Assembly: GCA_018396815.1 (NCBI GenBank) | Contig: JAGTQY010000006.1 | Coordinates: forward strand, 1-44,306 | Direction: 5' to 3' | DNA from: Candidatus Bathyarchaeota archaeon | Lineage (GTDB): Archaea; Thermoproteota; Bathyarchaeia; 40CM-2-53-6; DTDX01 | Length of the DNA stretch: 44,306 nt | Shown here: piece after piece, positions 23,520-24,805 of the stretch | How the letters are laid out: the number at the start of each line of letters is the position of its first letter | Position numbering within the stretch: position 1 is the first letter of the stretch | Translations under genes and position numbers: made by a program | Notes under the pieces: model-generated | Databases searched by the model: none | The model's input: only the letters and a program-made list of their open reading frames with translations | Told to the model about the DNA's origin: nothing

Positions 23520-23711
23520 GTGAATATTAAACTAGAAGAAGTTTCTGAAGAAGTTGAAGAAATTCTGTCTCCACCGAAAAAAACATTATTGAAAAAAGTT
23601 TTAGAAAGAGTCGAAAGTATAATTCAAGTTTATCCAGTTCACATAGTAGGTTTAACTTTCGCAATAGGTATTTTAATTGGTGTAGCTATTTCTAATTCTC
23701 AAAAAGATTAA
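23520..23711 (+). CDS. Small single-helix membrane protein
   Basis: 63 residues: an acidic N-terminal half (EEVSEEVEEILSPPKKTLLKK), then one hydrophobic helix at about residues 40-58 (VHIVGLTFAIGILIGVAIS) and a short polar end. This is a tail-anchored layout with the N-terminus in the cytosol. The GTG start has AGGGGGA nine bases upstream. The stop overlaps the stop of the converging CBS gene by four bases. The function is unknown. Confidence 0.65.
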   Translation: MNIKLEEVSEEVEEILSPPKKTLLKKVLERVESIIQVYPVHIVGLTFAIGILIGVAISNSQKD

Positions 23712-24805
23712 AGTTTACTTTTACGTTTACTTCTTTTCTGAGTTAATACTCGTTTTAATCTTTTTGATATATTATCAAAGATTACTGTCAAATCCCATCC
23801 ATTTTCTGTTAAAGAAATTAATTTTTTACTTGTGTTTATGTTTACGTAAACTTCATAGCCTTTCTTTAATGTTTTAACGTTAGCTTTAGCCTCTAATAAA
23901 TCTGGATATACTTTAACTAAATTTTTAACAGCTTTAAGAAACTTAATCTTGATTAATTCAGTATTTAAAAAATCTTTTGGTAAACCAGTTATGTAAACTG
24001 GAAGATCAATAAATGTGGATTTGCTTTCATAAAACAATTTCATGTAATCCCTAAAAGTTATAATTCCTTGAGGTTCATCCCATAGAGTTATTATTCCATA
24101 ATCCGAATTTTGACTAAGCATTTTCTTTAAAGTTAAAAATGCATCTTCATTAGGTGCTATAGTGAACGGTTCTTCCATTAAACCTTCAACCGGCAAACCC
24201 GATTTCCTTAAAGTTTCTTTCATCAACTCTCCTCTTTTAGAGGATTCCATCAGAAATAAATTAAAAACTATTTGAGAAGAGTTTACTACACCAATTAATT
24301 TATTTAAGTCTAAAACAGGTAAATGATCAATATCTTTTTTAACCATTAAATTTTTTGCCTTCATTATTGAAGAATCTTTTTGAATAGAGGTAAGGTTTAA
24401 ATTAGCTAGTTTACTTACAGGTAAACTCCATACCTCTTTTAAGCTTAACTCAAGAATAGAGGAAGCTTTTACAGCTTTAGTTAGTTTATTACCATCAAAA
24501 ACAGGTAAAGTTCTAATACGGTATTCATTCATAATTTTTGCAGCTTCACCTATGCTAAGTTTTGAAGAAACTTTGGGGATAAAAAAGGCTATAGAGGAAA
24601 CTTTACTGTTAATATTAGTTGATTTTAATATTTCACGAATAGAAACAACACTAATTTTACCTTCTTTTATTATAAAAGCTTCATACGCGTTTTCTTCTTT
24701 TAAAATTCCAATAAGCTTTGAAATAGATAGGTTTGAAGGAACTATTAAAGGCGGTTCACCAAGCTCTTCAATCTCCATCTGCTTAATTTTATCAAATTTC
24801 TCCAT
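23708..24805 (-). CDS. Four-CBS protein with HPF-like C-terminal domain
   Basis: 365 residues. Four CBS repeats occupy residues about 12-260 (for example AAKIMNEYRIRTLPVFDGNK, KKDIDHLPVLDLNKLIGVV and LWDEPQGIITFRDYMKL); pairs of these normally bind adenine nucleotides. The last hundred residues (LPVYITGLPKDFLNTELI, YEVYVNINTSKKL, GWDLTVIFDNISKRLKRVL) resemble the ribosome hibernation-promoting factor/sigma-54 modulation fold, ending in a basic tail. The inference is an energy-sensing ribosome-binding protein. A plain CBS regulator is the alternative. The ATG lies downstream of a weak GGTAATGG. Confidence 0.75.
   Translation of the reverse strand: MEKFDKIKQMEIEELGEPPLIVPSNLSISKLIGILKEENAYEAFIIKEGKISVVSIREILKSTNINSKVSSIAFFIPKVSSKLSIGEAAKIMNEYRIRTLPVFDGNKLTKAVKASSILELSLKEVWSLPVSKLANLNLTSIQKDSSIMKAKNLMVKKDIDHLPVLDLNKLIGVVNSSQIVFNLFLMESSKRGELMKETLRKSGLPVEGLMEEPFTIAPNEDAFLTLKKMLSQNSDYGIITLWDEPQGIITFRDYMKLFYESKSTFIDLPVYITGLPKDFLNTELIKIKFLKAVKNLVKVYPDLLEAKANVKTLKKGYEVYVNINTSKKLISLTENGWDLTVIFDNISKRLKRVLTQKRSKRKSKL

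Follow-up and report, generated by a model that had tools for sequence, protein, structure and literature searches.

Domain architecture of the encoded protein

The window analysed here, a stretch of 44,306 nucleotides from a Candidatus Bathyarchaeota archaeon (assembly GCA_018396815.1, contig JAGTQY010000006.1), carries a hibA-like gene whose product combines four CBS domains with a C-terminal HPF/RaiA-like domain and, judged by its sequence, is very probably a ribosome hibernation factor of the HibA family. The gene is a single uninterrupted open reading frame (ORF) on the reverse strand (23708–24805), which starts with ATG at 24805, ends with TAA at 23710–23708 and encodes 365 amino acids. 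We searched for relatives in 61 related genomes and found full-length ones in many of them; identity to the window protein was 70% in the sister species, and the top relatives from further families of its order and class reached 34–41%. A scan of genome contigs returned distant CBS proteins only. Comparisons were based on an alignment of 17 full-length relatives (A1), a profile of 43 C-terminal domains (A3) and another C-terminal profile (A2).

Pfam CBS matched four stretches of the window protein (E 2.1e-21). Together with the alignment, these matches define, with approximate boundaries, CBS1 (residues ~14–62; 24620–24766), in which S55 and E58 occupy the T/S-x-x-D position, CBS2 (~68–120; 24446–24604), which lacks this motif in the window protein, and CBS3 (~129–183; 24257–24421), in which H161 and P163 are invariant. 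The alignment further places CBS4 at residues ~205–260 (24026–24193), with T250 invariant and D or E at position 253 in 16 of the 17 sequences, preceded by a CBS3–CBS4 segment (~185–204; 24194–24253) that aligns with the loop of Pyrococcus abyssi HibA that reaches the peptidyl-transferase centre. The HPF/RaiA-like domain, delimited by profile searches, hhalign and a shuffle test, follows at residues 266–365 (23711–24010); it contains the motifs YITGLP (residues 271–276) and GWDL (336–339) and ends in a basic tail, with 10 K/R and a single D/E among the final 25 residues of the protein. Both halves are conserved in A1, and P269, G274, K288, E305 and W337 of the C-terminal domain are invariant. 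Given that P269, G274, E305 and W337 do not vary across the 17 full-length relatives, the conserved C-terminal motifs are not due to chance.

Identity of the C-terminal domain

Taken in isolation, the window domain scored weakly against existing HPF models (Pfam S30AE, E 0.06; NCBIfam yfiA TIGR00741, E 0.027) and fell under their curated cut-offs (14.9 bits vs. 40.9 for TIGR00741 and 14.5 vs. 23.7 for PF02482); likewise, no Pfam family exceeded its cut-off in the residues after ~265. The resemblance to HPF is real as judged by the family profiles, yet the one window sequence is insufficient to prove it. At the level of the family, 14 of the 43 C-terminal domains matched Pfam S30AE at E ≤ 0.01 (best 4.5e-8), and the best match to TIGR00741 among 21 members had an E-value of 2.3e-9. 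When A3 was compared with the PDB, the matches were mostly HPF, RaiA and YfiA chains, the best of which (E 3.7e-5) aligned columns 18–108 of 113. A profile–profile alignment (hhalign) between the family domain and a bacterial set composed of E. coli RaiA, E. coli HPF, S. aureus HPF and Listeria HPF gave a probability of 93.6 and an E-value of 2e-7 over 75 columns, and neither S. aureus HPF nor Listeria HPF was matched in score by any of 3000 shuffles of its own sequence. As far as sequence profiles can show, these comparisons settle that the C-terminal domain is homologous to bacterial HPF/RaiA. Matches to XPG_N, Ty3 capsid and RNAP delta were rejected as weak or partial, as was a match to the phage Q-beta coat protein.

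Membership in the HibA family

HibA was defined in April 2026 as a protein in which an HPF/RaiA domain follows four CBS domains (PMC13324472). We found the same arrangement here, namely four tandem CBS domains with a directly linked C-terminal HPF/RaiA domain, and the protein is homologous to P. abyssi HibA along its full length. Specifically, the best PDB chain for a full-length profile of the 17 relatives was 9sr9_H (E 1.8e-37), with a colinear alignment of profile positions 12–374 to chain positions 5–379; PDB entry 9SR9 is P. abyssi HibA (Q9UYR4). A role of the window protein in hibernation is thus strongly supported by homology to HibA.

Several observations weigh against this assignment. 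P. abyssi HibA was absent from the PDB matches of both C-terminal profiles, A2 and A3, at E ≤ 10, and its direct comparison with these profiles was weak, although above chance (equalled by 0 of 3000 shuffles for A2 and 2 of 3000 for A3). AlphaFold models built without an alignment were not confident, with pLDDT (predicted local distance difference test) values of 32 for the whole protein and 50 for the C-terminal 111 residues. In addition, a shortened loop between strands beta14 and beta15 would remove some contacts with the decoding site (see below). The low-confidence tail model had the order of elements expected for HPF, beta-alpha-beta-beta-beta(-beta)-alpha, and its first Foldseek match was HPF, though at an E-value of 0.027; the models gave no non-HPF fold that would contradict the assignment, but their quality is too poor to decide. 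Since the tail ties the protein only weakly to P. abyssi HibA, membership in the family rests on the architecture, the full-length match and the independent tie to bacterial HPF.

Two other explanations bear on this assignment. One is a chance resemblance to HPF, the domain being simply a short beta sheet plus a basic helix, as might be argued from the failure of the window sequence to pass the Pfam and NCBIfam cut-offs and from the match of A2 to a phage Q-beta coat fusion chain at E 2.2e-5. That match, however, arose through two copies of a 30-residue alignment and with A3 covered 29 columns at a domain E-value of 1.5, whereas the best HPF-type match to A3 covered nearly the whole domain; considering also the hhalign result, we regard a chance resemblance as extremely improbable. 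The other explanation is a stand-alone CBS-type regulator, either an HhpR-like transcription regulator or a Dri-like CBS factor, whose tail is a generic RNA- or DNA-binding extension. The CBS module does score against many CBS proteins, and NCBIfam HhpR was matched weakly (E 3e-4, far under its cut-off), but the tail is homologous to HPF/RaiA and also exists on its own, and Dri consists of two CBS modules without an HPF domain, which makes such a regulator highly unlikely. The assignment to HibA therefore stands as very probable.

These results bear out most of the preliminary description of the gene, which had been made from the DNA sequence without database searches: the four CBS repeats, the ~100-residue tail resembling HPF/RaiA, the YITGLP and GWDL motifs and the basic tail were all recovered, and the proposed fusion was correct, with the hibernation role now strongly supported through HibA. 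Its premise that typical HPF is missing from Archaea no longer holds, as HibA has been reported in 47% of archaeal genomes (PMC13324472).

Proposed mode of action and the question of nucleotide gating

In P. abyssi, the C-terminal domain of HibA plugs the mRNA/tRNA channel of the 30S subunit, the CBS module occupies tRNA sites of the 50S subunit in three positions, and the CBS3–CBS4 loop enters the peptidyl-transferase centre; ribosome binding, inhibition of translation, preservation of 70S ribosomes and binding of AMP/ATP at CBS3/4 have been reported for P. abyssi and Thermococcus barophilus, and deletion of hibA in T. barophilus led to delayed regrowth and smaller 70S pools (PMC13324472). 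The window protein would most likely act in the same way, with its C-terminal domain in the 30S mRNA/tRNA channel and its CBS module on the 50S subunit, so that the bound factor would keep the 70S ribosome inactive and protected from degradation until displaced by mRNA and tRNA. By analogy with the characterised proteins, we infer all of the biochemical steps in the window organism.

The T-x-x-D motif is tied to nucleotide binding in CBS domains. In the window protein the full motif (T250 and D253) is retained by CBS4 alone and is conserved across the family; CBS4 as the sole canonical site agrees with the single adenylate found at CBS3/4 of P. abyssi HibA. Sensing of AMP/ATP by the window protein is plausible from its sequence. 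The preliminary description had gone further and proposed a possibly nucleotide-gated factor; stated for this protein, AMP or ATP at CBS4 would switch ribosome binding on or off. Such gating would refine the assignment to HibA rather than replace it, and in its favour are the conserved T250/D253 motif and the affinities of the CBS module of P. abyssi HibA, which binds AMP with a dissociation constant of 12 uM, ADP with 65 uM and ATP with 113 uM at CBS3/4 (PMC13324472). By contrast, in P. abyssi AMP left the distribution of ribosome classes unchanged, ATP produced only a minor extra state, and neither had a clear effect on ribosome binding (PMC13324472). The label was thus not supported, and we consider gating unlikely. 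A more specific version, in which CBS4 of the window lineage would sense AMP vs. ATP and set binding and release, enabled by a weaker decoding-site grip of the shortened loop, appears more doubtful still.

Free-standing forms and distribution

One family (f3) of the order to which the window organism belongs also encodes the C-terminal domain alone, as proteins of 125–143 residues without a CBS module; the domain is therefore self-sufficient. The free-standing HPF/RaiA-like proteins at loci L026–L034 were about 36–38% identical to the window domain. In a tree of the 43 C-terminal domains, free-standing forms made up two distinct sets, both surrounded by fused forms; this agrees with the proposal that they arose when the CBS module was lost (PMC13324472). 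Within genus g3, fused HibA (L021, G033) and free-standing HPF (L027, L029) clustered together on the tree, which suggests a recent loss of the module in that genus.

At three f3 loci (L026, L029 and L033) the free-standing gene lay directly downstream of a universal-stress-type gene, a label that reflects a reading of the sequence and not a family search, and the ORF layout indicates that the same arrangement is probably present at L027, L030–L032 and L034. The pair may possibly form a stress operon. Several f3 genomes gave what looked like a CBS4+HPF match interrupted by a stop, as if hibA were broken; at L026, the one such locus that was read, this was rejected, since the locus holds two adjacent genes, universal-stress-type and free-standing HPF.

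Across the phylum, the C-terminal domain was found in 84 of 299 genomes. It was frequent in family f26 (e.g., L061–L066), in which 80 of 120 sampled genomes carried an HPF/RaiA domain, CBS-fused or free. Archaeal amoA was present in all four f26 genomes tested and f26 genomes were mostly 1.2–2.0 Mb in size, from which we infer that this family is Nitrosopumilaceae. Given that Nitrosopumilaceae are listed among the lineages without identifiable hibernation factors (PMC13324472), our survey suggests that ammonia-oxidising archaea carry the HPF/RaiA domain more often than stated there. At L061, L062 and L063 (about 1490–2801), a free-standing HPF/RaiA-like gene stands head-to-head with the gene of a stand-alone CBS protein of ~285 residues. 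This CBS protein is nearer to a separate CBS protein encoded beside fused HibA at L059 (28–31% identity, nearly full length) than to the CBS module of HibA, and hibA therefore does not appear to have simply been split in two here.

Genome context

The sister species has the same gene order, namely HMG-CoA-synthase-like, DUF7388, 63-residue ORF, hibA, NUDIX, AsnC and UPF0047. The divergent neighbour of hibA is the NUDIX hydrolase gene, and no ribosome-related gene was present among the neighbours listed. On the other side, the 63-residue ORF (23520–23711, forward strand) encodes a hydrophobic stretch and converges on hibA with a 4-base overlap at its 3′ end; its product was 74% identical over 53 residues in the sister species and had no Pfam match.

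Elsewhere in the genome, a gene for archaeal SBDS (aSBDS) is present. We found no further protein with four detectable CBS repeats there, although the scan recognised only half of the four repeats that the window protein contains and divergent modules could escape it; the remaining CBS matches occur as pairs. The lack of a second four-CBS protein matches the reported mutual exclusion of HibA and stand-alone CBS modules (PMC13324472).

Comparison with known systems

Dri of Pyrobaculum calidifontis is likewise an archaeal hibernation factor made of CBS modules, but it has two of them and lacks the HPF domain, whereas the window protein joins one CBS module to an HPF domain. HVO_2384 of Haloferax volcanii is alike in its described architecture, a 2025 paper having presented it as a CBS protein that carries a domain of hibernation factors (PMC12607858); it differs in being haloarchaeal and acidic. 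Bacterial HPF/RaiA (YfiA) proteins share the homologous domain; they lack a CBS module, and the profile–profile match to them leaves out the first strand. The free-standing archaeal proteins at L026–L034 carry the same domain but differ from the window protein in lacking the CBS module and, in the loci read, in having a universal-stress-type gene directly upstream.

The closest counterpart is P. abyssi HibA, with which the window protein shares the four tandem CBS domains and C-terminal HPF/RaiA domain, the colinear profile match and the nucleotide motif of CBS4. The CBS3–CBS4 loop is of about equal length (33 residues in the window protein vs. 34 over the compared span), and the archaeal insertion between beta13 and alpha11 spans 18 aligned residues in both. 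Pairwise identity is low, however (22% over 302 aligned residues), CBS3 of the window protein lacks the T-x-x-D motif that P. abyssi CBS3 has, and the beta14–beta15 loop is shortened (residues ~311–316; 23858–23875). Over the compared span, this loop measures 9 residues in the window protein (9–10 in its genus) against 14–16 among 15 further members of the family; P. abyssi has 18, and the insertion there contacts uS12 and decoding bases (PMC13324472). We did not treat this insertion as defining HibA, because it is dispensable for inhibition in vitro: deleting both archaeal insertions left inhibition unchanged (PMC13324472). The natural shortening offers a natural test of what the archaeal-specific insertion does. 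The family, described in 2025–2026, is thus already known, and the window protein is a divergent further member with one lineage-specific loop difference, which brings a divergent archaeal lineage into HibA.
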